Notes under the pieces: generated by a model
The model's database searches: none
What the model saw: only the letters and a program-made list of their open reading frames with translations
Told to the model about the DNA's origin: nothing
Position numbers and translations under genes: made by a program
Shown: piece after piece, positions 3,419 through 43,820 of the stretch
Layout of the letters: each line of letters starts with the position of its first letter
How positions within the stretch are numbered: position 1 is the first letter of the stretch
IMG/VR virus record: IMGVR_UViG_3300033145_002303
Location: 1 to 43,820 of that record
Source: a virus
Strand: one strand, 5' to 3'
DNA length: 43,820 bases

Positions 3419-4445
3419 GGCTATCAAGGCTTCTACCACTGTTACTATTGCCCTCAATGGCCCTAGCCGTGGTGGTGAAGCGAGGGAGGATGAGATTGTG
3501 GTGCATGGCCATGTAGCACGTGCGATTGCTGAGGAAGTCGAAGCTATTGCACTGAAGGACGATAAGGTTGCGGAGGTGACTGGGGCCACTAAAAGTAGCG
3601 GCGCTGGAAAAGGACGGCTCGACCTGCTGCCTCCTTGGGCTATCATTCGCTTGGCAAAGCATTATCAGGAAGGAACCGTCGGTCCTCACGCTTATCCAGC
3701 AAGGGATTGGGAGAAGGGTATCAGGATTAGCAGGTACGTGGATTCAGCCCTCAGACACCTTCTACAAGGGTGGGGAGGGTTAGGGAGGGGCGAGCCTCAT
3801 TTTGTTGCGGCCTTCTGGAATCTCTGTTGCCTTGTGGAGACGTTGCATAGGGTTGAGATAGGAGTGCTGCCGAAGGAACTGGATGATAGGGTGGTGCTTG
3901 AGAAGGAGCAAGAGATGGAAGAGCAAGGGATAGAAGAGGCACGGAAAGAAACGTTCGAGGCGTCCGACGACGAGGTGGAGCGCATGTGGAAGAGGGTTCG
4001 TGGGGTAGCGAGGGCGATGATTGGGGATTATCACTTAGCAGAGGAAATGACGGCGGAGGTGACCCTGAAGCTCATCGAAAAGAGGACGAGAGAGGGGGAG
4101 CTCAGCTTCATTATGCTAAAGCACATGATGATAGATGCCCTCAGAAAGTACCGCCGTAGGGAAATGCAGTCGTTGGAGGGAGATGTGGCAGAGCCGATTA
4201 GGAATGATGCCGCTGTGAAGGCAAAAGAAAAGGTGGCGGAGTTGATGGAGGGGGCGAACTTGACGGCCTTGGAGGGTAAGGTCATTTATGAGCTTTACTA
4301 TCTGGGTTTGCCACTCATAAAGGCGGCACTTAAGACGGGTCTTGGAGTAGATAAGGTTCGAGCGTTGAAGCAGTCGTCGTTGGAGAAACTAGCGAACGCG
4401 GAATGGAGAAGGCAGGTAGCGGAAGAAGAGGAAAGTGATGATTAA
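3381..4445 (+). CDS. dATP/dGTP pyrophosphohydrolase-like (DUF5664) domain fused to sigma-factor-like domain, 354 aa
   Basis: Residues about 78-170 (DLLPPWAIIRLAKHY, ARDWEKGI, SRYVDSALRHLLQGW, HFVAAFWNLCCLVE) match the phage DUF5664 / dATP-dGTP diphosphohydrolase N-terminal family. Residues about 196-262 (VRGVARAMIGDYHLAEEM, then LKHMMIDALRKYRRRE) resemble sigma-70 region 2. Residues about 296-338 (LEGKVIYELYYLGLPLIKAA onward) resemble region 4 with its helix-turn-helix. The two halves are joined by a glutamate-rich linker in one uninterrupted frame. Inferred role: dNTP pool control plus redirection of host RNA polymerase, or a DNA-binding pyrophosphohydrolase. The start at 3381 follows GAGG but is only moderately supported; residues 1-75 are poorly conserved in look. 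Confidence 0.7.
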   Translation: MIRAIVQEQQRDEAIKASTTVTIALNGPSRGGEAREDEIVVHGHVARAIAEEVEAIALKDDKVAEVTGATKSSGAGKGRLDLLPPWAIIRLAKHYQEGTVGPHAYPARDWEKGIRISRYVDSALRHLLQGWGGLGRGEPHFVAAFWNLCCLVETLHRVEIGVLPKELDDRVVLEKEQEMEEQGIEEARKETFEASDDEVERMWKRVRGVARAMIGDYHLAEEMTAEVTLKLIEKRTREGELSFIMLKHMMIDALRKYRRREMQSLEGDVAEPIRNDAAVKAKEKVAELMEGANLTALEGKVIYELYYLGLPLIKAALKTGLGVDKVRALKQSSLEKLANAEWRRQVAEEEESDD

Positions 4446-5775: not shown

Positions 5776-6720
5776 ATGGAGGCGGGTAAAGTTGAGGTAA
5801 GGGAAAAAGACCATCGGAGCGTGTCCTCCATGTGTGACTTTGCGAGGTGTCCAAGGAGGCATTGCTGGAAGCATCAGTTGAGGCTCTCGAAACCTTCGCC
5901 GCAGCGGGACCTGGCGATGCTTTTTGGGAGTGCTATTCATGCAGCGATTCCTTTCACATTCACGCGCGAGTTAGGGAAGGCTGCGGAGGCTTTTAATGAG
6001 ATTTGGAAAGATGGGGATGAATGGGATGACCCGAAGCGAAACTCAAGGGTTGCGAAGAACATTCTACTGGACCTTTTAGGTGTCTACGGAGCAGCTTCCT
6101 TCCCTTATGAAGTTCAGGTGCCTGAGGTAAAGGCAGGCGTTGTTAAGGGAGTAGGCCCTCATGAAATCGAGTTCGACATTGATGTTGGCTTTGAGAGTGG
6201 CAAGACGTTGATGGGTAGGATTGATGCGATGTGGAGGGAGAAGAAAGGTGGAGGGCTCTGGTTGGTGGAGTATAAAACGGCGACTCAGCTGTGGGGAACC
6301 TTTCCACAGATGTTCGTCATGGCACCACAGCCAGAGACATATGCACTTGCGATGAAGATTGCAGGATATGAGGTAGTAGGGGTGTTGGTGGAGGGCATTC
6401 TCGTGGCAAAGACGAGGGTAGAGAGAGTTTCAGTGCCACTCATCCTGGGAGATGAGGACCTTGAGGATTGCCTTACCTGGTGGAAGGCGAAGGATGCAGA
6501 GTTGCTGGAGCTGGAGCGCAACACGATGGACCCCATGGACTGGCCGATGGAACGAGCCATGTGCGCACCTTATGCGTGCTTCGGGCTGCAAGGATGGCCG
6601 TGTGAGTATCAGCCACTTTGTCAGGCGAGGGGAGAGTGGGAGGGGCTGGTGGGGATGTATGAGGTAACGCCTGATAGGCCAAGGGGAGGAGAGGAGGTGA
6701 GGGCTGATGAGTCAGCATGA
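5776..6720 (+). CDS. PD-(D/E)XK nuclease, Cas4/RecB-like, 314 aa
   Basis: The core motif GRIDAMWREKKGGGLWLVEY followed by KTAT gives the D-x(n)-E-x-K arrangement of the PD-(D/E)XK superfamily (around residues 152-173). Cysteines flank it: C20, C25 and C30 at the N-terminus and a C-terminal group (CAPYACFG, CEYQPLCQ), as in Cas4/AddB-like nucleases that hold a 4Fe-4S cluster. Likely a 5'-3' exonuclease making ssDNA ends for the Sak4/DUF669 recombination pair downstream. Start ATG 5776 after AAGGAGTGAAACT. It overlaps the ArsR gene by 14 bases. Confidence 0.8.
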   Translation: MEAGKVEVREKDHRSVSSMCDFARCPRRHCWKHQLRLSKPSPQRDLAMLFGSAIHAAIPFTFTRELGKAAEAFNEIWKDGDEWDDPKRNSRVAKNILLDLLGVYGAASFPYEVQVPEVKAGVVKGVGPHEIEFDIDVGFESGKTLMGRIDAMWREKKGGGLWLVEYKTATQLWGTFPQMFVMAPQPETYALAMKIAGYEVVGVLVEGILVAKTRVERVSVPLILGDEDLEDCLTWWKAKDAELLELERNTMDPMDWPMERAMCAPYACFGLQGWPCEYQPLCQARGEWEGLVGMYEVTPDRPRGGEEVRADESA

Positions 6721-12010: not shown

Positions 12011-12246
12011 GTAAGGAAAAAGGAATAGTTCAATCTGAACACGGCGTGATAAAGATTCTTCCTAGGTATGATGGTGAACAAACGTGTCGTGTCGTGATGC
12101 CTGAAGATATGACAGCTCTAGACATGGGAATGGGTTGCGAGCACTTGATGTCAGTGATTGCCTCAAGCATGGATTCAGGCTATGAAAAGGCCCTTGAAAA
12201 CCTATGTGAAGGAGCAATGAGGTGGAGGATGAGGAGACGGATGTGA
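12007..12246 (+). CDS. hypothetical protein between exonuclease and polymerase genes, 79 aa
   Basis: A small ORF that overlaps the exonuclease stop (ATGA) and the polymerase GTG start. Product MSKEKGIVQSEHGVIKILPR onward, ending in an arginine-rich RMRRRM. The body looks like a real small protein, with a beta-rich first half and helical second half; the arginine-rich tail lies in the region that overlaps the polymerase gene. It physically separates two parts of what is one polypeptide in other family A polymerases. Unknown function; it may help tether the two subunits. Confidence 0.6.
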   Translation: MSKEKGIVQSEHGVIKILPRYDGEQTCRVVMPEDMTALDMGMGCEHLMSVIASSMDSGYEKALENLCEGAMRWRMRRRM

Positions 12247-13511
12247 ACTTCTATTCAACCTTTGCTCAGCCTGCGATGATAGCCCTTGCGAGGGCAGGGA
12301 ATCGAGGGGTGAGGGTGGATGTTGGGCTTCGCAAGACGCTGGAGCTGAAGGCAGAGCAACAGAAGGAAGAAACGACGGAGAAACTTCTCAAGATACTTGG
12401 CCACGAGGTGAACCCCAACTCGCCGAAGCAAGTTAAGGAGTTGCTTTATGAAGAACTCGGCCTTCCAGAGCAACATAAAAGGAAGGTAGGAGGGAGAGGA
12501 ATAGGGGCGGTGACGAGCGATGAAGAGGCGATTAAGAAGTTAAGGAGGCTTGACCCTACAAAGAGCGATGTCTTGGACCTACTGCTCGACTTCAGGGGCT
12601 TCTCAAAAATGGCCTCGTCGATGAGGACGTTATTGGAGGAGCGAGAAGGGGAAAGTTATTTTGTTACGTCCTACAATGCGACAGGAACGACAACAGGGCG
12701 CATCAGTTCGTCGCAAACAATCCTTGGACTTGGAGGCAACCTGCAGAATCAGGCTCGCGGACCTTCCCGTCGCATCTTTGTACCCCGAAAGGGCTATTGC
12801 TTTGTAAAGGCTGATGCGAGTCAGGCAGAAGCGAGGGTAGTAGCAGTCCTTATGGGGGATGAGAAGTTGCAAGCTCAGTTCGCGGACCCTTCATGGGACG
12901 TTCACTTGGAGAACGCTCAGTTACTTTATGGTGGGACGCTGGAGGAGCTTAGGGAGGAGGACGCAAGAAGGGAGCGCAAGGAGGTAAGGGATTCGAGAAG
13001 AAGGAAGACGAAGGCCATTACACATGGGGCGAATTACAAAGGAGGCCCTCATGTGGTGGTGAAGTCTGCGGATATTCCCTACAACGAGGCGAAGCTGATG
13101 ATTGCAAAGTACCGCAGGTTGCATCCATTGCTGCTCTTCTGGTGGGAGAAGGTCGAGGCGTTGGTAAGGTCGAGAGGGGTGATGAAGACGACTTGGGGAA
13201 GGATACGTATTTTCCTGGGGAGGATAGACGAGGCGACGTTCCGGGCAGCGGTGGCACATGAGCCACAGTCGACTGTTGGAGACCTCATTAACAGGGCGTT
13301 CTTTAGACTGGATGCCAGAGGGGAGGGGAAGTGGTGGCCTTTGCTTCAGGTCCACGACGAGATAGTTTGTGAGGTAAGGAAGGAGGATGTGGAGGAGGTA
13401 ATAGCTGCGATGAGGGAAGAGTTTACTTTTCCAATGGAGGGACTTGGAGGACTTTCCATTCCGGTGGAGGTTGCAGTAGGGGATAACTGGTATGATGTGA
13501 AGGAGATTTGA
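12222..13511 (+). CDS. family A DNA polymerase, polymerase domain only, 429 aa
   Basis: Motif A KADASQAEARVV has catalytic D198. The motif B O-helix has R260, K264, H268 and Y272, spaced as R754/K758/F762/Y766 of E. coli Pol I, so the F762 position is His. Motif C VHDE has D379. The N-terminal FYSTFAQPAMIALARAG matches the segment that normally follows the exonuclease domain. The GTG start at 12222 is supported by AAGGAG seven bases upstream. It would pair with the UDG-exonuclease protein (10898) to make a proofreading replicase. About 430 aa is the size of a bare polymerase domain. Confidence 0.9.
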   Translation: MEDEETDVNFYSTFAQPAMIALARAGNRGVRVDVGLRKTLELKAEQQKEETTEKLLKILGHEVNPNSPKQVKELLYEELGLPEQHKRKVGGRGIGAVTSDEEAIKKLRRLDPTKSDVLDLLLDFRGFSKMASSMRTLLEEREGESYFVTSYNATGTTTGRISSSQTILGLGGNLQNQARGPSRRIFVPRKGYCFVKADASQAEARVVAVLMGDEKLQAQFADPSWDVHLENAQLLYGGTLEELREEDARRERKEVRDSRRRKTKAITHGANYKGGPHVVVKSADIPYNEAKLMIAKYRRLHPLLLFWWEKVEALVRSRGVMKTTWGRIRIFLGRIDEATFRAAVAHEPQSTVGDLINRAFFRLDARGEGKWWPLLQVHDEIVCEVRKEDVEEVIAAMREEFTFPMEGLGGLSIPVEVAVGDNWYDVKEI

Positions 13512-15628: not shown

Positions 15629-18600
15629 TCATTCCGTAAGGTAATCTTCTAGCATGATGTCAAGGAGGTCGGGAGGAACCTTTTCCTTCCTTTTGCCTTC
15701 CAGCTTTCGTATTGCGGCGGCTTCGAGAAGGATGAGGCGAAAAGTTGCAGGGCAGCAAGCGACTTTGAGTTGCTTGAGGTGGTAGATTTGTACTTTTAGT
15801 AGCTTCTCAGCCTTATGCTTTTGAGCAGGGGTACTCTCCAAGGAGCCGAGCACACGGAGTTGTGCGTAGACGTTGCGTACCATTGCCGCACGGGCAACGA
15901 TGTCGGCCTTCTCTAGGCCCGTTTCAGTTCCGAAAGCAATGGCTTGTATGGCCTGCACAAAGCCTCGATGAACTTCAGTAACCTTCACTTCATCAATGGG
16001 AGGAAGAGCATCAAGGTAGTCACCCGCAAGTTTGCGTAGCTTCATAGCGAGCCTTACATCGATGCCCTCTCGTTGAGGAAGATTAGCGATGACATTCACC
16101 GTCCCTACAATCTGCTTCATACCAGGCACGAAGCGCTTGGAGGTGCGAGAGAGCTTAGTAGAGAGTAGCTTAAAGGCAGGTTCGTCTCCACCAACTACTC
16201 TCTGAGCAAGGCGAATAATCTCGGCTCCTTCTTCTGAAAGGCCCAAAACGAGACCGCCTGGAGACCAGGAGACAGTTTTGAGGATGTCATCAAGGAAGCG
16301 TTCAGTGGGGCCCTTCATGGCCCTTCTCTCCTTCATCCATTCGGAACGGCCACGCAGACGTTCGTAGAGATTCTGGTTAACACCCATCATCACTGCAATC
16401 GTGGCAAGAGAAACTGCAGCATCGAGGCGTTCAAGGAAGGGTGAGTTCTTTTGAAGCAGCCTTCTACCACCAAGCCCTAAGCGCTCCACCATCGAGCGAG
16501 GGTAGGTAAGGAGAGAAGCACCTATGTGACCTACCTCACCCATTTCGAGCTGACTCCGTGCCCATCGGTCGTAGAAGACATGGACACGGCCCACATGACG
16601 GTGTGAAGCGAAGTAGGTTGCAGGGAGGAGACCCTTCGTGGCCCATAAGTGGAGGAACTCTTTTCGCTCAGAGGGCTCAAGTCCACCTAGGCGGGCTCTG
16701 AGGAGGGCCTTATCGAGGCTTGCGGGCGTGGCCTTTGCAAGGTTGAAGTTTTTAAGGGCTTGGTAGGTTAGGTGCACACGAGTGTTGAAGACCCACCACC
16801 GGCCGCCACGGTCACCAAGCTCAAAGCTTTTCGCGGGGTACTCGACGCGGGACATTACAAACCCAAAGCCTGGCTTGAGGGGCTTTCCAAGAAGCCACTT
16901 TGCAAGGTAGCCGTGATAAACGGGGGCATCAGCCATGAAGGTCTGCTGCATCATGGAGTAGCTCTCATTGACGTAAAGGTCAAAGTAACGCTTCTCGCCT
17001 TTAAGAAGCTTGAGGTTCCTTGGGTCAAAGAGGAACGGAAGGTCCTCATTTGCAAGGCTTTGAAGTGCGAAGTTTCGTAGGCCGGGGGCGATGGTGGCAA
17101 AGTGGATGGTGAAGAAGCGCCTCAGGAGGCTACTAGCACTACGGGACCAGAAGGATTTGATGGAAGGACTGGAGGCAATGTAGGATTGGTACTCAGCTGC
17201 ATAGCGGTCTCGGACCTTCCGTTGCTTACGAGCAATGAGGTCAGCGTTTTGAGGAGTTCGGCCTTCCGCTATCTTGGCTTGAATGGCCTGGGAGATGAGG
17301 TTCATAGTATCACCGTAAGGGGAGTAGTACGTTGCGGTAAAGATGTTCTTCAAGCTGCGGCGGTATTTGGTGAGGAAGGGCGCATCATAGGTAGGAGGCT
17401 CCTCAGCAGTTCGAGCTTTTAGGGTTCCTCCTATGCCGGCTCCAAAAGGCTTAGCCTTCTCGGAAGCAAAGGTCATTGGGTCCTCCCGAGCTAAGCGGGG
17501 TGTATAGTGCTTGCGAACCACGCCCCAAGTCTTATCTTTCAGATACCTTCGCAGGAGTCTCCTTAACTGTGAGAAGGACTCTGCCCTGGCAGCGATTTTT
17601 CGAATAGCAAAAAGGTCTTTAGAAGGGGCATTGGGAATTTTTGTGCCCCTTCGAATGTAGAGGAGGGCCCGTGCAAGACGGACGTCGGGCTCGAGCTTCT
17701 TGAAGTAGTGGACTTGAAGGTCCAAGAAATCGCGTTGAAGGGGAGTGAGCTCTCCAGGGTCCAGCTTCCCTTCCATCGCAAGATTAACGCGGTTGATAGT
17801 GTCGACATCCTTCAGGAGCTTATGTAATGAGACCTTATGTCTCTTTGCAAGGGCCCGAACCGCCTTCTCAACGCGGTAGTTCAGGTAGGCTTCGAGACGA
17901 TGAGGCTTATCCATTCGAGAATAGAGGCTGCTGATGGGAAGGCCGGTGAACTTTTCATCATGCATGAAGGCAAAACGGGTGGAAAGGAAAATGGAAGGGT
18001 CCTTATATCTCTTCGCAATGTCCTTCACGGTGGTAGCGACAACGCCTTGCCAAACAATAGGGTCGATGCCAGGAGGAGCCTCATCGGATGTGATGAGGTC
18101 ATGAAGATTCTGGAGAGCTCTGTTGACTTTCTTCCAGGAAGGTTGTTTTGCTCCTCTCCTTGTGAAACGTTTCTGCACCCAGTTGACGAACTCCAGGTGG
18201 GTCCTGGAAAGCTTTGCAGAGGCTTTTCTGCCAGCAGTTTCATTTATGATACGGAGCTCTACCTTTTGGGCTTCAGCAATAGTCTTAGCAACCTTTGGCA
18301 CTCGCCTCTTTCCTTTTCCTTTTCCATATTTCTGATAATACTCATGGCGCCAAGCGGTGTCCATTCCCATAGCATCTAGCTGAGCACGGGTTTCTTTTAT
18401 GAGGACATCAAGTCTAGCGCGCTCTTTTGTAGGAGCAATCCTTCTAGCTTCCTTAGCAGAGGTAAGCACGTTAAGGAGGGCAGCACCTTTAGATGAGATT
18501 TTCCTCACATTACGAGGGGTGTAAAGGACGGCACCAATGGCACGAACGGCGTTGAGCTTGCCTCTGGCAGCGGCATCAAGAACTTTTTCAACAGGACCGA

Positions 18601-21600
18601 TAAGGTCGTCCGCAGCTTTACGAAGGACAGGGTAAGGAATATTTCCTAAGCGTGCACGCTCGTAGATGTCGAAGGTATGGTTACAGAAGGCATTGAGGAG
18701 GGCTTGCTCAAGACCAGGGTCCTTCACATGAATGCCCTTCCAGAAGGCTTTATCTTGAGCAAGAAAGAAGAAAAGAGTGGGTAGAGCTTCGACTCTGATT
18801 TCAGCTAGTGGAGTGGAAGGGCTCATCCTTCGGTAGTACTTCATAAGGCGAGCCTTCAAGGGACGGTTCGCGTTGAGATAGGCAGTAAAGGGAGCAGCAA
18901 GTGTAGAGTTTCGCTGAACTATGTGGCCAAATTCATGGAAAAGTCCAATAGCGAGGACGCCAGGACCAGCGTTGAGGTTTGAGAGGATTGTTCCATCATG
19001 GAGTACTACTGCTCCAAAGGGAGCACCTTGGATGAAGTGGAGCTTGAGGTTCAGGACCTTCGCAAGTGTGGCAGTGGTATGGGGAATTGGTTTAGAGACT
19101 TGCTCAGGAGTAGCGAACTTGTAGCCCATAAGCTTCATGGTAGCATCAGTGATAGAGGAGCCAGACACTGAGGCGAGAGGTTTTCCAGGCTGAATACCTT
19201 TGTGGTAGAAGAGGATAGTGCCATCGGCATAACGGACCATCCATCTCTTTCCAGTAAGACCTATTATCTTGCCGATGATGTAGCCACGGTTCTCACTTAC
19301 TGCATAGTTTCCGACGGTAAAAGGTTCGAGTGCAGCAAGTCCTTTCCGAACCTTCGGAGCCTTCTTGCCCTTCTTCCATACCGTTGGAGGTGGAGGAGTT
19401 GCAGCTTTGTAGGCTTCCTTTTGGAAGGCTTCCAGCGTCATGCCACGCCTCTTTGCTTCGGCCTTGAAGCGAGCAAGGGAGGCTTCGATAGCAGCTCTCT
19501 TGGCTAAGTGAACCTTAGACTTTCGGCTTTTTGGAATGGCAGCGATGGAAGCCTCATAAAGTTCAGCCTCGTGAGCAAGAAACTTCCCCATTGGGGTGGC
19601 TCTCGCCTCAGCGATAGCTGCTGCAGTGAGAGGTCCAGGAGTCCTAGCTTTCACAGCTGCTGCCTTCTCTTCAGCTACTGGAGCAGGTTGACGCTTGGTG
19701 ACGCTGACCTTCTTGCCTTCCTTCTCCACACGATAGGACTTGAGGTAAGAGGTCTGGCGAAAGGCTCCACGAGCGGTCAGGCGAATGAGCTTTCCAATAG
19801 GTGCAGAAGGGTCTGCTATGATTGTCTTTGAAAGGGACTTGAGTCCGGCTCTGCCATAGATGGCATCAAGGACCTTCGCGACTGCTGCGGCCTGAAGCTC
19901 AGGGCGGGCATCGGCAGGAAGGCCGTGCTGCTTTATTGACTTCTCAACTTCCTGACGAATGACAGGGGCGGAGAGCGAGAGGAGGCGGGTAGCAGCGACT
20001 CCCGCATCTCCACCGCCTGCCAAGACTTGCTTCGCAAGGGCGACTTTATCATAGGTAGCGAGTTCAGCGCGGTCAGCCTTAGTGAGGGGCTTACCAGCGA
20101 GACGGCGTTCTAGGAAGCGGTCAGCAGAGGTAAGAGGCTTAGTGGGCTTGGCCTTCACAGGAGCCTTAGCCTTGGCCTTAGCTGCAGCCTTAGCCTCAGC
20201 CTTAGCCTTAGCCTCAGCCTTAGCCTTAGCTGCAGCCTTCTCCGCATTTAGAAGGTCGAAGAGCGGGCGTAGGCGAGGGGTGGTCCCTTTCCGAAGCTCC
20301 ACAAGTCTACCTTTCAATGCTGCACGAACCTCATGCTCATAGGCCCACTGAATGGCTTGCTTCATGGTGTAGGCCCTTGCAAGGGTCTTGGCTGTTGAGT
20401 GGATTTCCTTTGGGGTCATTTCCTTCAGATTAGGATTAGACTTCAACGCTGCCTTGATAGAGCCCTCAATTATTGCAGTTTTTTGCTTCACGTTCCCTTG
20501 CTTGAGTCGAGCCTTAATAGCGCCTGTTAGTTGAAAAGCCAGGACGCTAACACCTGCTTCAATAATGTCACTGACGGAAGCACCGGTAGCTGCTGATGCT
20601 GCCATCACGGTGGAAGTTGAAAGGACAGTGCGTGCCACCGGTTGAGGAACTTCTATTCCAATCTTTGCGAAAATGAGTCCCCAGGCGGCACTCATCCCTA
20701 CCGACCCTACATCGAACTCCTTATGACCCGCAACAGCAGGAGCAAACTGACTTAGAGCGTCCCTTAAGGCAAGGCTGCTTGAAGAACTTAGTAATGCCCT
20801 TGCCTTTGGACCCATTTCCGTAACGAGCGTTCCCATTCTTCCAATCACAGCCTTTGGAAGTACTGCAGCGCTTACGCCAGCAGCTAATTCCATCGTTGCG
20901 GCTATCAAGGAGAACTCTGCAACGGCACGGAAGACGTTACCACTAAGGTCCGCCAGGCGCGCCCAGCTAACAGGGTCGGAGTCATTCCGCATCATTGCCA
21001 GTCGCGCATAGGCTATCTGCTCGGCTCCAATAGTCTCCGCGTAGTTCTCAGGAAAACTAATCCCTCGGTCAGCGGTGGACATGAGATTGAAAACATCAAG
21101 CCAAGTGTTTATCCGTGCTGACCAGAAGTCCAAGTCCTTCCCATGCCTTAGCCGTTTCATGTTACTGAGAATGGCAAGCTCCCACTGAGCGTCCTTGTAA
21201 AATTGCTCCGAGATGGAAGATAGCTCAGGTGGTCGGTCTATCCGCTCGTAGTAAGTACGAACAACAGTCTTGAGGGCCTCCTCAGGCCAGAGATACATTT
21301 CAGGGAGGTGCTTGTGGAACAGCGTAAGTGTTTGGACAAGCTCATCATAAGTCCTGTTAGCCACAGTGGAAACAGGTGCCCAGACAGGTTCGCCCTTGAT
21401 GTTAACTCCAGTAGGAAGAAAGGTATCGTCGGGAAGGGCCTCAAGGTCGTAGAGGTAATTTAAGTCATTAGCGAGGCCGGAGCTCTCAAGGTAGGCTCTA
21501 GTAACGAGGTCCTTCGCAGCCTTTCCTGCCTGATCCCTTTTTTTATTCTGAGCTTTGAATATCGCTGCTTTACCCCAATCTGAGATGCCACCTAAATTAG

Positions 21601-22033
21601 AGACAGCGCGAGCAGCATCTCTTTGAGGGGTAGGAACAACGCCTTGGTAGTCGAGGGAAGGTATCTCTTCTCGAAGGTCAATCTCAGGAACCGATTTCTC
21701 TGCGACTCTTACAACCCTTACCCAATCCTTCTTCATCTCCTTCCAATTGACAGGGTCGGGGAAGTTCTTGAAGTCAGGAGGACCAAGAGCGACATCAGGC
21801 TCAGCAGGCTCAGAGGCAAGCTCGTGAATGGCAGCTGCTTGCTCAGGTTCTGTAACCTTAGGAGGCTCCATCCCTGGAAGCTTTCCTTCCGCAAGCCTTT
21901 TTCGCAAAGTTGCGAACTCCTCGTCGCGAGTGAGAGGAGAAGGAAAGGTCATTTCCTTGTCCTCATCCTCTCCCTCTTCTCGAAGCCTTCGTCGAAGCTC
22001 TAGGAACTCTTCTTCTTTGGAAGATGGACTCAA
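15629..22033 (-). CDS. giant internal virion (polyvalent) protein with HEFGH motif, 2134 aa
   Basis: By far the largest gene, last in the late operon, as for ejected internal proteins of podoviruses. Visible parts: a charged N-terminus; hydrophobic/Ala-rich stretches near residues 370-500; a low-complexity Ala/Lys/Glu segment (about 595-635, repeats of KAKAEA); a zincin-like motif HEFGH at 1033-1037 in GLFHEFGHIVQRN, which may cleave host or virion proteins; and a long helical C-terminal half typical of phage large polyvalent proteins. No lysozyme or transglycosylase motif is evident. It probably forms the ejection channel after capsid exit and carries effector domains. Starts with an ATGA overlap to the 516-aa gene. 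Confidence 0.8.
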   Translation of the reverse strand: MSPSSKEEEFLELRRRLREEGEDEDKEMTFPSPLTRDEEFATLRKRLAEGKLPGMEPPKVTEPEQAAAIHELASEPAEPDVALGPPDFKNFPDPVNWKEMKKDWVRVVRVAEKSVPEIDLREEIPSLDYQGVVPTPQRDAARAVSNLGGISDWGKAAIFKAQNKKRDQAGKAAKDLVTRAYLESSGLANDLNYLYDLEALPDDTFLPTGVNIKGEPVWAPVSTVANRTYDELVQTLTLFHKHLPEMYLWPEEALKTVVRTYYERIDRPPELSSISEQFYKDAQWELAILSNMKRLRHGKDLDFWSARINTWLDVFNLMSTADRGISFPENYAETIGAEQIAYARLAMMRNDSDPVSWARLADLSGNVFRAVAEFSLIAATMELAAGVSAAVLPKAVIGRMGTLVTEMGPKARALLSSSSSLALRDALSQFAPAVAGHKEFDVGSVGMSAAWGLIFAKIGIEVPQPVARTVLSTSTVMAASAATGASVSDIIEAGVSVLAFQLTGAIKARLKQGNVKQKTAIIEGSIKAALKSNPNLKEMTPKEIHSTAKTLARAYTMKQAIQWAYEHEVRAALKGRLVELRKGTTPRLRPLFDLLNAEKAAAKAKAEAKAKAEAKAAAKAKAKAPVKAKPTKPLTSADRFLERRLAGKPLTKADRAELATYDKVALAKQVLAGGGDAGVAATRLLSLSAPVIRQEVEKSIKQHGLPADARPELQAAAVAKVLDAIYGRAGLKSLSKTIIADPSAPIGKLIRLTARGAFRQTSYLKSYRVEKEGKKVSVTKRQPAPVAEEKAAAVKARTPGPLTAAAIAEARATPMGKFLAHEAELYEASIAAIPKSRKSKVHLAKRAAIEASLARFKAEAKRRGMTLEAFQKEAYKAATPPPPTVWKKGKKAPKVRKGLAALEPFTVGNYAVSENRGYIIGKIIGLTGKRWMVRYADGTILFYHKGIQPGKPLASVSGSSITDATMKLMGYKFATPEQVSKPIPHTTATLAKVLNLKLHFIQGAPFGAVVLHDGTILSNLNAGPGVLAIGLFHEFGHIVQRNSTLAAPFTAYLNANRPLKARLMKYYRRMSPSTPLAEIRVEALPTLFFFLAQDKAFWKGIHVKDPGLEQALLNAFCNHTFDIYERARLGNIPYPVLRKAADDLIGPVEKVLDAAARGKLNAVRAIGAVLYTPRNVRKISSKGAALLNVLTSAKEARRIAPTKERARLDVLIKETRAQLDAMGMDTAWRHEYYQKYGKGKGKRRVPKVAKTIAEAQKVELRIINETAGRKASAKLSRTHLEFVNWVQKRFTRRGAKQPSWKKVNRALQNLHDLITSDEAPPGIDPIVWQGVVATTVKDIAKRYKDPSIFLSTRFAFMHDEKFTGLPISSLYSRMDKPHRLEAYLNYRVEKAVRALAKRHKVSLHKLLKDVDTINRVNLAMEGKLDPGELTPLQRDFLDLQVHYFKKLEPDVRLARALLYIRRGTKIPNAPSKDLFAIRKIAARAESFSQLRRLLRRYLKDKTWGVVRKHYTPRLAREDPMTFASEKAKPFGAGIGGTLKARTAEEPPTYDAPFLTKYRRSLKNIFTATYYSPYGDTMNLISQAIQAKIAEGRTPQNADLIARKQRKVRDRYAAEYQSYIASSPSIKSFWSRSASSLLRRFFTIHFATIAPGLRNFALQSLANEDLPFLFDPRNLKLLKGEKRYFDLYVNESYSMMQQTFMADAPVYHGYLAKWLLGKPLKPGFGFVMSRVEYPAKSFELGDRGGRWWVFNTRVHLTYQALKNFNLAKATPASLDKALLRARLGGLEPSERKEFLHLWATKGLLPATYFASHRHVGRVHVFYDRWARSQLEMGEVGHIGASLLTYPRSMVERLGLGGRRLLQKNSPFLERLDAAVSLATIAVMMGVNQNLYERLRGRSEWMKERRAMKGPTERFLDDILKTVSWSPGGLVLGLSEEGAEIIRLAQRVVGGDEPAFKLLSTKLSRTSKRFVPGMKQIVGTVNVIANLPQREGIDVRLAMKLRKLAGDYLDALPPIDEVKVTEVHRGFVQAIQAIAFGTETGLEKADIVARAAMVRNVYAQLRVLGSLESTPAQKHKAEKLLKVQIYHLKQLKVACCPATFRLILLEAAAIRKLEGKRKEKVPPDLLDIMLEDYLTE

Positions 22034-29591: not shown

Positions 29592-29607
29592 CTAAGCCTT
29601 CGCTTAG
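29592..29607 (-). other. small hairpin over the capsid stop codon
   Basis: 29592-29597 (CTAAGC) and 29602-29607 (GCTTAG) form a perfect 6-bp stem with a four-base loop. It covers the stop codon region of the major capsid gene at 29604. It could stabilise the capsid mRNA 3' end; there is no U-tract. Confidence 0.4.
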
Positions 29608-30626
29608 CTAGTGTACGCACCTAAGCGGCCCTGACGTCGCAACTGATAGCAAATGGGGCCAGTGAAGGTACTGACGATTCTGGCAATCCGCTCCAGTTGA
29701 TTGGGCAGGAACATCCATGGAGTCATGGAGAACCAAAGAGCCGGGTCGTAGACGACATCAATCCATTTGGTGTTGAGCATCATCATCGTCCCGGAGGGCC
29801 AATCAGCATGTGGAGTCCAAATGACGTTTGCACCTTTGTAGCGGAGCACATCGTAGCCGAGGTCGGCAACGCGTGAACCCACGGAGGTCGTACGCTGAAT
29901 CTTCGTGCCAGCAAGGTCCTCGTAGATTTCAAAGAGCGTCTGGTTGGTGATGATAAGGTCCGGGAAGTCGCCGGAGCCACCAGAGCAATCGTTGAAAAGG
30001 GTCCTCATCTGGTCCTCAAGATTCATGAGGGCAGGATTGACTGCCGTCGCATACTGCCCCTGCCACCAGGCATTGCCAGTGCCGGTATCTACATCACCAT
30101 AGGTGTAACTGCCAGGCGCCTGGTTGTAGTAGCTACCACCAGGTAGCATGTTAAGCAAGGAATAAGGGTCGCGGGCAGCCCGCAACTCTGTACCCCCTCC
30201 AGTATCGACTGCTGCGATGAGGGAACCCTCGTATTTGGTATCAAGAGCATCCCTCGCAGCTTCAGTCTTAACTTGGACAAGGGACTTGATTTTCCCTGCT
30301 CCAGCATTCTGCTGGTCATCTTGCAGGCTTCTCTGGATATGAGCAGCGAGGTACTTCCACTTCCAGTGACCTGCCGTCTCGATTTCATCCTCACCGACTG
30401 GCAACGTGTCGCCTTTCGCAACCGCTATCGCCGTCTTGGTTCCATAGCGAATGGTACGTTCAATGTACCGCTCGCCACTCTGTTTCTTGAAGCATCCAGC
30501 AGCCTTGAGTGCTGCTGAAATCACGTTTGCTTCAAGAATGTTGTCCACTGCCTTCTTCTGAATCTCATACCACGTGGTAGTGAAGAAGGTATCAACTGCT
30601 TCTGTCAAGGTCGGAAGCGTAGTCAC
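29604..30626 (-). CDS. major capsid protein, 340 aa
   Basis: Size, position after an acidic scaffold and before adaptor genes, and sequence (EIQKKAVDNILEANVISAAL at the start, TKWIDVVYDPALWFSMTPWM near the end) fit an HK97-fold coat protein. The early region (KQSGERYIERTIRYGTKTAI) is compatible with the E-loop; the end is a conserved beta-rich P-domain-like part. The start has a good AGGAGATAGAAG site. C-ending codons are frequent, consistent with high expression. Confidence 0.8.
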   Translation of the reverse strand: MTTLPTLTEAVDTFFTTTWYEIQKKAVDNILEANVISAALKAAGCFKKQSGERYIERTIRYGTKTAIAVAKGDTLPVGEDEIETAGHWKWKYLAAHIQRSLQDDQQNAGAGKIKSLVQVKTEAARDALDTKYEGSLIAAVDTGGGTELRAARDPYSLLNMLPGGSYYNQAPGSYTYGDVDTGTGNAWWQGQYATAVNPALMNLEDQMRTLFNDCSGGSGDFPDLIITNQTLFEIYEDLAGTKIQRTTSVGSRVADLGYDVLRYKGANVIWTPHADWPSGTMMMLNTKWIDVVYDPALWFSMTPWMFLPNQLERIARIVSTFTGPICYQLRRQGRLGAYTS

Positions 30627-31520: not shown

Positions 31521-31804
31521 AGTATCGCCTGACTTTCAAGGCCCTCAGCCTTACAATACCTTCGTAGGTCTGCCTCAGACATAAACTCCTTCCCTTCCGG
31601 ACTCGCGTCTCGCATCATATAACCGCCATTCGGACCAATCAGTGCCCCACGCGGTGGCCACTCCTTCATGGCAAAGCGGGATGGAATCCGCACCATGATT
31701 ACGCCACAGGCACTACATTCCTCCGGCAAGTTCCTTTGTGCCACCGGACGGCGAACCTCTACCACCCTCTGGCACTTCGGACATTGGTGTTCGTACAGCA
31801 CCAC
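31517..31804 (-). CDS. FmdB-type zinc-ribbon protein, 95 aa
   Basis: The N-terminal YEHQCPKCQRVVEVRRPVAQ with a second pair CSACG at about residue 31 is the FmdB/CxxC-CxxC zinc ribbon found in regulatory proteins and phage head-region genes. The reading frame is certain, yet its first 92 bases overlap the 3' end of the portal gene. Probably a small regulator or a head-assembly accessory. Confidence 0.75.
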   Translation of the reverse strand: MVLYEHQCPKCQRVVEVRRPVAQRNLPEECSACGVIMVRIPSRFAMKEWPPRGALIGPNGGYMMRDASPEGKEFMSEADLRRYCKAEGLESQAIL

Positions 31805-33437
31805 TGCCTCCTTTCTTTACCTTCCTCACACCGGGCCTATTATACGCCGCAAGCAACTCGTCAAAGAGTGCCTGCTTGTCAATACGAGGGTCGCTACTAA
31901 GATTGGCATAGAGTTGCATAGCCGTTTCCTGACGAGTAAACGGTGTCGCGTAGTGTTCTGTGGAGAAGGATATCTTGTAGGAAAACCTCCCGTTGGAGAG
32001 GATTTCAGCACTAATCATCTCCCATCTTTCCCCTCCCTCAGCACCCACGACCTTCACACTCTGAGGAACGGTCCAATGAGCAGCAACGATGTTGTTAAGG
32101 ATGCGAACAAAGTCACGGTAGGACTTACGAAGGCTCTTTTGCTTACGACCAAGGCGTAGCTCCCCACCACGAGTTACCACGTTGGTTTCCGTGGCAGTAG
32201 TACGTGAAAATTCAGAATACTCACCAGAGAGGTTCCGAGAGATGCCTAGAGCCTCACGAGCATTTTGATGAATTACGTCCTCCTCTTGATGAAGGAGTGT
32301 ATTGATGGAAACATTTCCTCCAATATACTTCACAATTTCGTCCAACGGAACGCCAATTTCCTCAAGCTCCACCAACATGCCAGGAGTTCCATTAAGAAGG
32401 GCCGCACGAGCTTCAGGACTGAAGGCTTCCTTCTTTGCAATGAGCTTGAGTATGCTCGCCCTCCGTTGTCGTTTGGCCTGAAGATGAATGTCATCGAGCT
32501 CATTCTGATGAGGGGCGGCATAATATGCAACGGGTGTTGTCCAAAAGGCTCTTGTACGAAGGCCCAAGCAGACATCTACCCAGGGAAGGACGTTATCAAT
32601 TTGAAGGGTATTGATTACATTCCTAATGATGACCGGCTGCTCATCAAGAGCAACAACGATTACCTTCCCACTCTCCCGGTCCATAATTTCCCAAAGTTCA
32701 ATGAAATCCTGCTCACCCTTACCCTTCCCTTCAGTCTGTCCTTGGCGTTCCTCGACGGATTCACGGGGATGGGAGAGACCAAGCAGAAGCTCCTTCGCTG
32801 TCACACGGCCCTGCAAACTTCCTGCCTTCTCATTGTACTTCGGGTCAGCACGAACCTCCTCTACCTTCCTCACCACACGGTGAAATACTTGAGGGGCGGT
32901 TGCAAGGTCGCGGGTTCCCCAAGGGACTACGACGTTGTGGGGAAGGACGAAGGCGGCCCAAGGAAGGCCACTCCGAGCAATACCACTCTCTATCATGCCA
33001 CCCTCATCGTCGAACTGCGTCATGGTGCCGCCCAATTGACCCAGGCGAAACCTTGGGTCATAGCCGAATTCACTATCGTAGCCGAGTTTGATGAAGCCAA
33101 CGCCAAAGAGGTAGGAGGAAGTGAGGGCATCCTCCATAATGTCGGACACATCAAGACCCTTCAGCATCGCGTTATCAAAAGACTCGACGATGGGAGCGGT
33201 AAGGGCAGAACGCTCAGTTCGAGGTTCCACCATCACAGCTACCTCAGGGACTGAAAGGGCGGAAATCATCGTGTCGCCTTTAGAGGAAATAATGTTCGGT
33301 CCAGTGTCGCAGGAGGTTGCGATAGAGAAGAACTTAGCCTCAAGGTCGCTCCAAATGTCCTCAAGACCGAAGACCTTGCGAAACTCCAGACCGTAGTTGA
33401 TAACATCGACCCATTCTTGTGCAGTTCGCTCTTTCAT
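31713..33437 (-). CDS. portal protein, 574 aa
   Basis: The start at 33437 (MKERTAQEWVDVINYGLEFR) is chosen for its ATGA overlap with the 49-aa gene; an in-frame start at 33470 lies inside that gene. Size and sequence (DVSDIMEDALTSSYLFGVGF, FIKLGYDSEFGYDPRFRLGQ, then PWVDVCLGLRTRAFWTTPVA) match podovirus-type portals. Forms the 12-mer at the unique vertex. The final 31 residues are glycine-rich and overlap the FmdB-like gene. It is the central head gene of the minus-strand operon. Confidence 0.8.
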   Translation of the reverse strand: MKERTAQEWVDVINYGLEFRKVFGLEDIWSDLEAKFFSIATSCDTGPNIISSKGDTMISALSVPEVAVMVEPRTERSALTAPIVESFDNAMLKGLDVSDIMEDALTSSYLFGVGFIKLGYDSEFGYDPRFRLGQLGGTMTQFDDEGGMIESGIARSGLPWAAFVLPHNVVVPWGTRDLATAPQVFHRVVRKVEEVRADPKYNEKAGSLQGRVTAKELLLGLSHPRESVEERQGQTEGKGKGEQDFIELWEIMDRESGKVIVVALDEQPVIIRNVINTLQIDNVLPWVDVCLGLRTRAFWTTPVAYYAAPHQNELDDIHLQAKRQRRASILKLIAKKEAFSPEARAALLNGTPGMLVELEEIGVPLDEIVKYIGGNVSINTLLHQEEDVIHQNAREALGISRNLSGEYSEFSRTTATETNVVTRGGELRLGRKQKSLRKSYRDFVRILNNIVAAHWTVPQSVKVVGAEGGERWEMISAEILSNGRFSYKISFSTEHYATPFTRQETAMQLYANLSSDPRIDKQALFDELLAAYNRPGVRKVKKGGSGAVRTPMSEVPEGGRGSPSGGTKELAGGM

Positions 33438-33583
33438 GACTTCTTCTTCTTTCGCCACTGAGAATAGCACACCGCTGCTCGCTGCTTCTGAGTAGGGAAC
33501 TCCTTGTTCATTACCTTGTTGTCTATGCAGCGGCTGATGAACTTTCGCCTCGCTTCACCTTTCCTAGGCTTTGGAAGTGGCAT
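33434..33583 (-). CDS. small conserved phage protein, 49 aa
   Basis: MPLPKPRKGEARRKFISRCI then DNKVMNKEFPTQKQRAAVCY then SQWRKKKKS. I recognise the pattern MPLPKPxKGExxxxFISRC...VMNKEFPxQKQRxAVCYSQW as a widely shared small phage protein that usually lies beside the portal gene. Function unknown. The stop at 33434 overlaps the portal ATG. Confidence 0.8.
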   Translation of the reverse strand: MPLPKPRKGEARRKFISRCIDNKVMNKEFPTQKQRAAVCYSQWRKKKKS

Positions 33584-36783: not shown

Positions 36784-38562
36784 CTAATTCCATTTGAAGC
36801 CTCTCGAAGGGTCTACGCCTGAACCAACGCCGCCGTCAAATACCAAACTGGGAATTGACATGCCCCAAGCTGGAGTTGGACGGTGGTCAGTGCCTGCCGC
36901 ATCCATCTTCGCCTGCTGCTGCCTCGCCATTGCCATTACGGTGTCAAAATCATTCGGCCCACCTTCGCTCGCAACAGCGCTTTCTTGATGGGAGGGGCTT
37001 ACCCTCCAAAGCTCCAACTGCATTGCCAACGCGTCGATAAGGTCGTCGTTGGTCCCAAGTGGATATACGAGAAGCTCATTTACAAGTGCATCCATGTAGG
37101 CCCTCAGGTACATCAAACCTCCAGCGAAGGCTGGCTGAAGTCCCCTGATTCTCGCGGCCTTCGCAATGCGAGAGTGACTGAGGGGCGTTACTGCAAAGAA
37201 CATTCCCGTCGTTACCTGCCGCTGACGAATCCAATGTAGCAGGCTCTTCTGATAAGCGGTTGTTTCAATCCCAGTCGTCACCGGATGCCACTTCCTGACC
37301 TGCTCCCACAGGAGGTCCAGCACCTTTGAAGGCGAGCATCTCTCCCTCGCATACTCCAACACATATATCTTCCCCTCATGCATGTCCTTCCCACAGGTCA
37401 TAACGACGTTGTAGTCCGGTGGGCCTTTCGTGTCTGTAGGGTCACCCCCAAGATCAACAGTCGTAAAGGTCATGAGTCTTGGGGGCTCTACATCATAGTA
37501 GCGTATCCACTCAGCTCTAAAGAGCATGTTGTCTGCTTGAACAGGGGAGTTAAGATAAAGGCTCGAGAAGAGGTAAGGGCCTTGCGAGGCTGCAATCCCT
37601 GCAAGTACTTTCTCTCCGAAACGCTCTGGCCACATGAGCTTCCCTCTTATGTCAGGTCGAGCATCAGTTTCCTTCGCTGCCCACTGGAACACTATGAAGG
37701 CTGGCTCATGCTCCATTACCCAGGCAAGAAAGTCCCTAACATACCACCGCGTTCCAACAATAACATTCTGGTCGAACTCTGCCTCGTCGAAAAGGGATGG
37801 AACAAGGCGATGCCAGCCGATTGCTTGCGAAACATCCGCCTTTGAAGGCAACACCGAATCTTCACCAAGGTCGTCCTTGTCAGGTGCAACAGTGTCATCC
37901 TCAACAATGAGATTGAAGTGACGGGAAGTTACCTGTGTCCTTACTCCAGCAAACTCGTAGGTACTTTCTGCATAGTTGCCACTCCTTCTCAAGCACCTTC
38001 CATCCTCACTCCATTTTTCAACAGGGGAGGGCATGATGGAAGGGAAAAGGACTCGAAGGAGAGCAGAAGAGGTTATAGAGCTTCCTAACGCACTACCTTT
38101 GGCCTTAGCATTAGTCGACGTGTTTTGAGCCAGCAGACATCGAACATTAGGATTCCGAACTCCCCTCCAGGCAGAGTAGGCAATGGAGACAAGGGTGGTT
38201 TTGTACCACCCACGAGGCATGAGAATGAGGAGCTTCTTAATCCCGTTGGCTTTAATGTCGGCGAGGCGTTCAGGCCAGGTTTCCTCAGGAACGCCCGCCC
38301 TAGCAAAGACCCAACGAAGGGTTTTCTCATAAACCTTCCAAGGGTGGACAAGTGAGGCATTATGACCCTTGTAGAGTTCTAACAGGCGGCATAGAGGCTT
38401 GTGAATACGAGGATGAAGGCGGTCGAAGCCCAGGACGCCTTTCGCAAAGAAGTAGAGGTCACCAAGGGCGTAAATGCGAATACGAGCAAGGAGTTCCTCG
38501 TCTGGTATAGGGACAGACTCCGAAACTTCTGCTTGCGACTCTTTTGTCATCGCTACTGACAA
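36784..38562 (-). CDS. terminase large subunit, 592 aa
   Basis: ATPase domain: Walker A-like MPRGWYKTT (M115, K121) and Walker B VEDD with E221/D222 (preceded by FNLI). The RNase H-like nuclease domain has TVDLGGDPTDTKGP near residue 358 and a C-terminal DDLIDALAMQLELW, which supply the acidic metal ligands. Length is normal for TerL. Pumps DNA into the procapsid through the portal. Ten-base overlap with the small subunit gene. Confidence 0.9.
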   Translation of the reverse strand: MSVAMTKESQAEVSESVPIPDEELLARIRIYALGDLYFFAKGVLGFDRLHPRIHKPLCRLLELYKGHNASLVHPWKVYEKTLRWVFARAGVPEETWPERLADIKANGIKKLLILMPRGWYKTTLVSIAYSAWRGVRNPNVRCLLAQNTSTNAKAKGSALGSSITSSALLRVLFPSIMPSPVEKWSEDGRCLRRSGNYAESTYEFAGVRTQVTSRHFNLIVEDDTVAPDKDDLGEDSVLPSKADVSQAIGWHRLVPSLFDEAEFDQNVIVGTRWYVRDFLAWVMEHEPAFIVFQWAAKETDARPDIRGKLMWPERFGEKVLAGIAASQGPYLFSSLYLNSPVQADNMLFRAEWIRYYDVEPPRLMTFTTVDLGGDPTDTKGPPDYNVVMTCGKDMHEGKIYVLEYARERCSPSKVLDLLWEQVRKWHPVTTGIETTAYQKSLLHWIRQRQVTTGMFFAVTPLSHSRIAKAARIRGLQPAFAGGLMYLRAYMDALVNELLVYPLGTNDDLIDALAMQLELWRVSPSHQESAVASEGGPNDFDTVMAMARQQQAKMDAAGTDHRPTPAWGMSIPSLVFDGGVGSGVDPSRGFKWN

Positions 38563-40103: not shown

Positions 40104-40280
40104 ATGATTGCAATCGACGTTTACCATCCACTCGACGGGCATAGACAGTCTGTTGAGACTAAACATGTTCATAGCAAAGAGGAGTTATTTACTACCTTGA
40201 AGGACATCGTAGCACGCTATGGAGTAGATTCCATCGTGCGGTTAAGCTACGACGATGAGGTAGTGAATGACCTGCGATAG
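40104..40280 (+). CDS. hypothetical protein, 58 aa
   Basis: ATG 40104 follows AGGAGAAG at good spacing. Product MIAIDVYHPLDGHRQSVETK then HVHSKEELFTTLKDIVARYG then VDSIVRLSYDDEVVNDLR. Looks like a small alpha/beta protein; no known family. It is the first right-arm gene after the iteron-like region. Confidence 0.65.
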   Translation: MIAIDVYHPLDGHRQSVETKHVHSKEELFTTLKDIVARYGVDSIVRLSYDDEVVNDLR

Positions 40281-40342
40281 ACAGGTAAGCGTTCAATCGG
40301 CTGGCATAGCAGGAACAAGACTCCTGAACAGGAGAATGAGCG

Positions 40343-40513
40343 ATGGACCCTTCAGAGAAAAGAATCGAGAACGCGCGAGACGCACTTGGCGTGCTAAGGA
40401 CGGTAGAGCTTCGTCGCTTGGCAAAGTATTTGCTGCGGCACATTCGCAAAGACCATCAGCCGACGCAGAAGGTGATGGACGCGCTGGATGCCTGGGCCGG
40501 TGGAGCAGATTAG
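40343..40513 (+). CDS. small helical protein, 56 aa
   Basis: ATG 40343 is preceded by AGGAG eight bases upstream. Product MDPSEKRIENARDALGVLRT, then VELRRLAKYLLRHIRKDHQP, then TQKVMDALDAWAGGAD. Strongly amphipathic and helical. The longer frame over 40267-40581 is a shadow of this gene plus the leader of the next one. No family recognised. Confidence 0.6.
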   Translation: MDPSEKRIENARDALGVLRTVELRRLAKYLLRHIRKDHQPTQKVMDALDAWAGGAD

Positions 40514-40581
40514 AAGAGTCTGTAAGCGAATGTAAGCCGTTATGGAAGGTAGAAAGGGAAAGAACAGGAAAGGAACAGCCG

Positions 40582-40791
40582 ATGTACGTTAGTCCAAACT
40601 TCAAGACGAAGAAGGCACTTAGGAAGGCTGTGGCTGATGGAGCAGAAGTAACGACCTTCCAGCCTGGGCCATTCGGTGGAAGAGAGCCAAAAGATGGCTG
40701 GTTATCAGTGGAGGGGCCGCATTATCCGAAGCCTCATACGTGGTACGCACGAGTTGAGGTAAAGGATGGGAAGGTTGTGAAGGTTCAGTAA
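40582..40791 (+). CDS. hypothetical protein, 69 aa
   Basis: The start ATG 40582 (MYVSPNFKTKKALRKAVADG) follows GGAAAGGAACAG. Contains VTTFQPGPFGGREPKDGWLS and the ending WYARVEVKDGKVVKVQ, which looks like a small beta-rich phage protein of a kind I have seen but cannot name. Ten codons or so of acidic/basic alternation at the end. No catalytic motif. Confidence 0.65.
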   Translation: MYVSPNFKTKKALRKAVADGAEVTTFQPGPFGGREPKDGWLSVEGPHYPKPHTWYARVEVKDGKVVKVQ

Positions 40792-43009: not shown

Positions 43010-43047
43010 CAAGACATGTTGGGTGCTGATATTTGACAATCGAATAT

Positions 43048-43183
43048 GCTGGCGTGTGGGAATCTGGACATAGTGGCCCTGTATCGCCATGGGGCACTGG
43101 TACTGAGTTGGGGCGGCGATATAACCCCACGCTACCTGCCGACTGTGGAGCCAGCCGCATGAACGTCGGCCACGCCAGCACCA
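43048..43183 (+). ncRNA. structured RNA-like element a, closed by a 9-bp stem, ends in CCA
   Basis: 43048-43056 (GCTGGCGTG) pairs perfectly with 43171-43179, followed by A and then CCA (43181-43183), as at a tRNA 3' end. Inner pairings include TATCGCC/GGCGATA and GCCGAC/GTCGGC enclosing TGTGG/CCGCA. No T-arm with a TTCRA loop is present. The element follows TTGACAATCGAATAT, repeated before element e. Confidence 0.5.
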
Positions 43184-43188
43184 TATTT

Positions 43189-43325
43189 GGCAGCCTTACT
43201 CCGGCCTCAGCAGCCAAGCCAACCCTGAGGCTTAGGAGATGCGTCGAGTCCTGCTGCGAACGGACTTGGCCAATGAACGCAGGAACTTAGCTTATAGGCT
43301 TCGACATCGGCGCTTACGGCTGCCC
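43189..43325 (+). ncRNA. structured RNA-like element b, 7-bp closing stem
   Basis: 43189-43195 (GGCAGCC) pairs perfectly with 43318-43324. Inside, GCCTCAG/CTGAGGC (7 bp) and TCCTGC/GCAGGA pairings are possible, and GGCTTCGACATCGGC contains a TTCGACA T-loop-like stretch just before the 3' arm. It starts only 5 bases after element a. Confidence 0.4.
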
Positions 43326-43353
43326 CGGAAGTGAAAGGTGAAGATAAAAGGTT

Positions 43354-43369
43354 CCGCCCCTTTGGGCGG
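43354..43369 (+). other. perfect hairpin between elements b and c
   Basis: CCGCCC-CTTT-GGGCGG, a tight 6-bp stem with a 4-base loop. It could separate transcripts or act as a processing signal. Confidence 0.5.
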
Positions 43370-43372
43370 TTG

Positions 43373-43482
43373 GCTGGTCTGCGGGAAACGCCCTCGAACA
43401 TCGACGCAACTTAGAGCGCGGTGAAATATCGAGCACCGAGAGTCCTGACGAGGATGCAGGTTCGACTCCTGCCAGACCAGCA
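43373..43482 (+). ncRNA. tRNA-like element c with T arm
   Basis: 43373-43381 (GCTGGTCTG) pairs perfectly with 43473-43481. A canonical T arm precedes the 3' arm: stem 43456-43460 (GCAGG) with 43468-43472 (CCTGC), loop TTCGACT. A variable-arm-like hairpin (GTCCT-GACG-AGGAT) lies before it, and CGGTG/CACCG with a 10-nt loop could be an anticodon-like arm. The D region is not standard. About 110 nt, like element f. Confidence 0.5.
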
Positions 43483-43491
43483 CCTTTAGTG

Positions 43492-43658
43492 AGCGGTGGC
43501 GACCACGGTGGAACAGTGGTACGGAAGCGGAAGGAAATGCGACAGTCACTGAAGCAACTGGAAACTGTCAGTAGCGGCAAGTCTAGTTGGCTACCTTCAG
43601 CAAAAACGGCAGTACCGTAACCGTATTGAAAGAGACGGTATCGAATCCGTCCGCCGCT
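43492..43658 (+). ncRNA. tRNA-like element d, 167 nt
   Basis: 43492-43498 (AGCGGTG) pairs with 43652-43658 (one G-U). A T-arm-like hairpin GACGG/CCGTC with an 8-nt loop TATCGAAT lies directly before the 3' arm. Inner hairpins include CCAC/GTGG near the 5' end, GACAGT/ACTGTC and GTAGC/GCTAC. Its closing sequence resembles that of element f (GCGGCGG). Confidence 0.45.
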
Positions 43659-43675
43659 TTTTGACAACCAAATAT

Positions 43676-43820
43676 GCTGGTCTGCGGCGTGTGTGAAACG
43701 CAAGTGGGCGTATCCCACCCTTCGGGAGCGTGGCCCAACCTATGCGAATCTGCGGGTACCCAATACGATTCGAGGCAACAGCGGGCAGCAGGTAGCGGGT
43801 AATGCCAATCCTGCCAGACC
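43676..43820 (+). ncRNA. tRNA-like element e, cut by the window end
   Basis: Begins GCTGGTCTGCG like element c. The pairing 43679-43684 with 43815-43820 (CAGACC) closes six pairs before the window stops. Inner hairpins: GTGGG-CGTAT-CCCAC and CGAATC/GATTCG. TCCTGC before the 3' arm matches the T-stem of element c. Preceded by TTGACAACCAAATAT, the second copy of the leader seen before element a. Confidence 0.45.

Follow-up and report, generated by a model that had tools for sequence, protein, structure and literature searches.

The window, the whole 43,820-nucleotide stretch of DNA analysed here, comprises the linear IMG/VR virus record IMGVR_UViG_3300033145_002303, which derives from a tailed phage. 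The genes for the terminase (36784–38562), the portal (31713–33470) and the major head protein (29604–30626) lie on the minus strand, and that for DNA polymerase A (12222–13511) lies on the plus strand. An array of tRNA-like elements occupies positions 43047–43820 (denoted as a–e), together with one element at the window start (3–112, denoted as f), on the same strand as the early genes. In the relative IMGVR_UViG_3300037087_000168 (denoted as G001), the flanks of both window ends adjoin each other. Since this synteny makes the start and the end of the window neighbours, elements a–f belong to one cluster, in which f is the sixth member, as originally proposed. Elements e and f are probably separated by a short gap, perhaps of about 11 nt by analogy with the c–d junction. 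No convincing reading frame was found between the elements, up to six of which adjoin one another. A small protein encoded beside the array (332–661) matches an HNH endonuclease profile weakly and has homologues in G001 and in the related loci L051 and L067. The minus strand also carries a 2134-aa reading frame (15629–22033) that matches nothing in Pfam or PHROGs.

All six elements are oriented on the plus strand. Element a (43047–43183) is closed by a 10-bp stem, TGCTGGCGTG/CACGCCAGCA (43047–43056/43171–43180), which is directly followed by CCA at 43181–43183, as had been noted from the sequence; a canonical T arm or T loop is absent from it. Element b (43189–43324) has a weak 7-bp closing helix, GGCAGCC/GGCTGCC (43189–43195/43318–43324). 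Element c (43373–43481) is closed by a 9-bp stem, GCTGGTCTG/CAGACCAGC (43373–43381/43473–43481), adjoined by a perfect T arm with a normal 7-nt loop, GCAGG-TTCGACT-CCTGC (43456–43472). It also contains a variable-arm-like hairpin, TCCTGACGAGGA, at 43443–43454 and the motif GGTGAAATATCGAGCA at 43420. Element d (43492–43658) combines an acceptor-like stem with one G-U pair, AGCGGTG/CGCCGCT (43492–43498/43652–43658), a D-like arm, ACCAC-GGTGGAACA-GTGGT, and a T arm with an 8-nt loop directly beside the closing stem, GACGG-TATCGAAT-CCGTC (43634–43651). Element e (43676–43820) is truncated by the window end, and its closing stem reads GCTGGTCTG on the 5' side and CAGACC... on the 3' side. It carries the motif GCGGCGTGTGTGAAACGC at 43684–43701 and a T arm with the motif GGTAGCGGGTAATGCCAATCC at 43791–43811; this arm holds an insert, GCAGG-TAGCGGGTAATGCCAAT-CCTGC, in place of a canonical T loop. 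Element f has an acceptor stem, GCGGCGG/CCGCCGC (4–10/105–111), a D arm (13–16/26–29), the variable sequence AGGGT (83–87) and a perfect T arm with a 7-nt loop (88–104).

In c, d and f, a T arm with a 5-bp stem and a TTCRA loop thus directly adjoins the 3' strand of a 7-bp acceptor stem; the 5' strand of this stem lies 105–109 nt upstream in c and f and 167 nt upstream in d. The full combination of a 7-bp acceptor stem, an adjacent 5-bp T stem and a 7-nt TTCRANY loop is present in c and f, is altered in d by the 8-nt loop, and is absent from a, b and e. The T-arm-like hairpins originally described beside the closing stems of c and d are therefore both present, and f has one as well. The outer 12–20 nt are common to c and e and likewise to d and f, in line with the shared closing sequences noted at the outset. 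Because these ends are alike, c/e and d/f may represent tandem duplications whose interiors have diverged. A direct repeat with 77% identity between its copies leads into a (43025–43059, TTTGACAATCGAATATGCTGG) and lies between d and e (43653–43687, TTTGACAACCAAATATGCTGG), both on the plus strand.

Both strands were scanned for a T arm with a 7-bp acceptor strand 60–230 nt upstream. The scanner matched c, d and f and made five other, weaker matches in the real window; shuffled whole windows gave 0–2 matches. For perfect 9-bp pairs at a spacing of 100–180 nt, 0.23 are expected per 773 nt of the window, and two places were observed (a and c). Since about 4.6 comparable 7-bp pairs are expected per 773 nt at the same spacing, the closing helix of b is at chance level. 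The original description of closed segments thus holds for a (10 bp), c (9 bp), d (7 bp with one G-U) and f; it fails for b, and e runs off the end of the window. The z-scores of the folding energy relative to mononucleotide shuffles are −3.2 for f, −3.0 for c, about −1.6 for a, b and d, and +0.5 for e. The overall folding energy is moderately unusual at most, and the case rests on specific tRNA features and on homologues. The retention of arms is partly a matter of construction, because the scanner selects elements on their T arm and acceptor, and single D arms often do not exceed shuffles.

Standard tools recognise little of this array. In the window, the Rfam check first suggested for the array gives a match to the tRNA family RF00005 for f alone (46.4 bits; gathering threshold 29). 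ARAGORN without the intron option calls no tRNA in the window, and with introns it calls f as tRNA-Ala or tRNA-Val, depending on the options. Neither Rfam nor ARAGORN finds a tmRNA in the window; a tmRNA reading was rejected, and c resembles no more than the T-arm fragment of a tmRNA model. Among the relatives, ARAGORN without introns detected no canonical tRNA in about 1 Mb, and a search with RF00005 over 42 of them gave nothing above the cut-off; in a closer scan, a 68-nt element of the locus L070 reached 36 bits.

Relatives were gathered by terminase alignment, which yielded 80 related loci, many of them in fragmentary records. Neither single proteins encoded near the array nor the spacer repeat, used as a DNA pattern, retrieved any relatives, and the terminase with one window protein as the only query gave distant matches only. 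In genome contigs, neither the motif of e nor a relative of the terminase was found, and a similarity search against annotated phages returned T arms or short tRNA pieces only, or no match. In 1.13 Mb of relatives, the scanner made nine perfect-loop matches, compared with none in one shuffled set; seven of the nine are convincing, and those in L102 and L104 look like chance. The elements located by the scanner lie in L051 (5176–5301, 123–126 nt), L067 (2670–2846, 177 nt; 1809–1933, 125 nt), L069 (6374–6484, 111 nt), L070 (4214–4265, 52 nt; 4305–4372, 68 nt, scoring one lower), the relative G048 (L129, 1502–1562, 61 nt) and the relative IMGVR_UViG_3300018080_000043 (denoted as G029; L131, 2106–2235, 130 nt). 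The T-arm core GGTTCRANYCC occurs 26 times in 46 whole records, against 11 matches for the reversed pattern, and this search added two further elements of 119 and about 100 nt in the relative G016. The elements of the relatives thus span 52–177 nt. Those in L051, L067, L069, L070 and G029 are oriented opposite to the terminase, as in the window. The slot itself varies: in L051 the small terminase gene and a homologue of window 40267–40788 flank the array, which in the window comes after 40267–40788. In G001, the closest relative, the matching gap contains no such element; it was accordingly rejected as an array homologue, and the phage family can do without the array. A noncoding region of G001 (L033, 10620–10880, minus strand) forms long hairpins, including one with the closing stem GGGACTGGCCCCC/GGGGGCCAGTCCC, and has no T arms.

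In L051, homologues of a and e, denoted as a' and e', were recognised from their flank and interior motifs and not through the scanner. The direct repeat that leads into a also precedes a', which differs from a in the closing stem at two pairs: one has changed on both strands, and one G-C has become G-U. The e' element (about 5010–5190, minus strand) is a full-length homologue of e. The two share GCGGCGTGTGTGAAACGC (18 nt) and GGTAGCGGGTAATGCCAATCC (21 nt) without mismatch, and the T-arm insert of e is identical letter for letter in L051, at a terminase identity of 50%. For a, a', c and e', all 36 cells of the closing stems are paired, four of nine pairs have changed on both sides, and the covariation score is reached by one of 500 shuffles. 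With four sequences whose arms were joined by hand, this result is supportive, not conclusive. Lack of covariation had been set beforehand as a refutation of the original prediction; in this small sample, the a-type and c/e-type closing stems do covary. Together with the presence of the same kind of element in relatives, this supports the proposed family of phage tRNA-like RNAs.

These comparisons bear on the view that the elements are decaying pseudo-tRNAs, left without function after duplication. The apparent tandem duplicates with diverged interiors, the imperfection of several arms and the empty gap in G001 are all compatible with it. However, decay does not account for compensating changes on both sides of the closing stems or for the repeated appearance of one anticodon-less design among several relatives, and the identity of the e/e' motifs at about 50% terminase identity argues against it. 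We regard this explanation as unlikely.

The elements have no usable anticodon, the part of a tRNA that would make decoding possible. In none of the 13 elements scanned in the window and its relatives is there a 7-nt anticodon loop with U33; 4 nt or 42–98 nt take its place, or the arm is missing or unparsed. In f, the anticodon stem GAGTT/GGCTC (31–35/78–82) encloses 42 nt instead of 7. The corresponding loop measures 44 nt in L069, 55 nt in the long element of G029 and about 98 nt in d, where a TACGG/CCGTA stem at the anticodon position was read by eye. The 68-nt cloverleaf of L070 has an anticodon stem, CCTGG/CCAGG, capped by a GAAA tetraloop, and the 52-nt element of the same locus and the G048 element have no readable anticodon arm. 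Because the parser saw no anticodon stem in several elements, the anticodon is more safely described as "lost or rearranged".

If these were true tRNA genes that introns interrupt in the anticodon arm or at other sites, as the original prediction had also considered, splicing would restore decoding. Element f does resemble a tRNA with a single anticodon-arm insert and is called as such when ARAGORN allows introns, and the L067 element at 2670–2846 has a D arm of the classical tRNA-Leu type. ARAGORN also reports a tRNA-Leu in L070, although we rejected this call, which spans two separate short elements. Several observations speak against splicing. A strict bulge-helix-bulge motif is not above shuffles in 12 elements; no group I intron matches Rfam in the window, and the inserts, at about 35–100 nt, are too short for one. 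Both intron types were rejected on these grounds. No RtcB gene is present in 47 records, though the host could supply the enzyme. Where the 5' strand of the anticodon stem is readable, in f, d and L051, no U33 follows it; the 52- and 61-nt elements of relatives, shorter than a tRNA, leave no space for a normal anticodon arm, and the T-loop insert of e is conserved in sequence. Intron-bearing tRNAs are therefore quite improbable.

Some relatives carry a second topology, which is absent from the window. In G029, two tandem circularly permuted tRNA-like elements (L131, 1505–1548 and 1657–1701, within 1505–1760) run in the order T arm and acceptor 3' strand, 13–14 nt linker, acceptor 5' strand, U8-A9 and D arm; in the second of them, GACGG pairs with an upstream CCGTC at the anticodon position. 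ARAGORN makes no call on either. A distant phage, IMGVR_UViG_3300028563_000035 (denoted as L029), shows a similar permuted layout at 6514–6550 and 6670–6712, and no permuted match of the quality of G029 or L029 arose in shuffled sequence. Within L029 6514–6900, CCA directly follows the discriminator base in the linker, and an additional T arm with CCA has no clear 5' partner. An unannotated permuted YrlA-like element also lies near annotated tRNA genes in a second distant phage, Virus Rctr197k (KX853510.1; L159, 1504–1560). The parsed structures of f and the 68-nt L070 element, and likewise the permuted elements of G029 and L029, combine D, T and acceptor arms but have no normal anticodon arm.

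This arrangement recalls the bacterial Y RNA YrlA, in which the D, T and acceptor arms are kept but there is no anticodon arm (PMC8394870). Phages have been reported to carry Y RNAs (PMC12282133, PMC7765460). As Y RNA relatives, the elements would be scaffolds in which the tRNA-like module and an extended stem tether the Ro60/Rsr protein or PNPase. The permuted elements match the YrlA family RF02553 weakly, with 33.3 bits in G029, 26.9 in L029, 20.2 for a third permuted element and 24.5 in Rctr197k, far under the gathering threshold of 69. By contrast, the window elements are unpermuted and give no YrlA match even at E ≤ 10, and no TROVE/Ro60 (Rsr) gene occurs in 47 phage records. A Y RNA scaffold is therefore improbable for the array. 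Since YrlA also lacks an anticodon arm, the layout suggests that the window elements may be the same type of mimic, opened at the acceptor end. As for tRNA-like punctuation, by which RNase P and RNase Z would trim a long early transcript through signals with no function of their own, the location between early genes on the coding strand and the recognition of the acceptor and T arm by RNase P would suit it, but up to six adjoining elements with no convincing reading frame between them, and interiors that are long and conserved in e, make it very unlikely.

On balance, we slightly favour the explanation that the array encodes several small RNAs derived from tRNA genes that do not decode and instead bind host proteins. 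That the elements are non-decoding tRNA mimics is likely from their sequences, and decoding is improbable because a usable anticodon is absent. Most elements keep the top half of the tRNA, namely the acceptor stem, the T arm and often the D arm; this is the part that RNase P, the CCA-adding enzyme, EF-Tu, T-arm modification enzymes and some tRNA-directed effectors read. A long segment stands in place of the anticodon loop; in relatives a GAAA tetraloop does so, or the arm is lost. Most probably the RNAs are transcribed as part of the early operon, and host tRNA-processing enzymes would then excise them as presumably stable products. These could bind a host tRNA-recognising protein as a competitor, sponge or scaffold. 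A binding role of this kind has been proposed for the tRNA-like module of YrlA and may hold for phage T4 RNA C.

The YrlA tRNA-like domain may competitively inhibit an anticodon nuclease (PMC7790460), and phage tRNAs have been argued to be shaped for resistance to anticodon nucleases (PMC10264068). Because of these two proposals, competition with tRNA-binding host proteins is our first choice of action, tentatively and at less than an even chance. With the anticodon loop gone, anticodon nucleases could not cleave the RNAs, and competition for binding alone is conceivable. A role as decoys for tRNA-targeting defence, as first suggested, is possible. More speculatively, and on present evidence rather doubtfully, this lineage may have swapped its tRNA genes for anticodon-less decoys, in open and permuted forms of one fold, that occupy host effectors recognising the acceptor and T arm, such as tRNA-tail nucleases.

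Among known systems, the small stable RNAs C (species 1, 139 nt) and D (species 2, 119 nt) of phage T4 lie beside the phage tRNA genes, are expressed late and have no known function (PMC9697503). RNA C resembles the array in its 3' part, where a canonical T arm (CCGGG-TTCGAAT-CCCGG) precedes a closing strand, and in its long interior. Its acceptor-like stem, read by eye, is imperfect, and no sequence homology to the array has been shown. Neither T4 RNA matches an Rfam family at threshold. T4 also has eight normal tRNAs, whereas none was found in the present phage family, with up to six elements in the array. In structure the window elements are comparable to these T4 RNAs, and they may likewise give stable RNAs. 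They share with YrlA, which also occurs in phages and resembles the elements of G029, L029 and Rctr197k, a tRNA fold without an anticodon arm, and differ in being open at the acceptor end rather than at the stem that replaces this arm. Canonical phage tRNA arrays are likewise tandem among small early genes and have acceptor and T arms, but their members measure about 70–90 nt, in contrast to 52–177 nt here, where the 7-nt anticodon loop is missing and ARAGORN without introns is silent. In archaea and algae, circularly permuted and intron-bearing tRNA genes (PMC3978253) have a disrupted layout too, and G029 similarly places the 3' half before the 5' half; the present elements differ in their bacteriophage setting, without a bulge-helix-bulge motif or a recoverable anticodon.

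No report of such arrays was found in the open-licence literature, and their novelty is provisional because of this coverage. The findings describe compact phages in which tRNA mimics, in many lengths and two topologies, are the only detectable tRNA-like genes. Such phages offer comparative material on what tRNA mimics do for a phage. They also serve as a warning that a class of phage RNA genes escapes standard tRNA finders.
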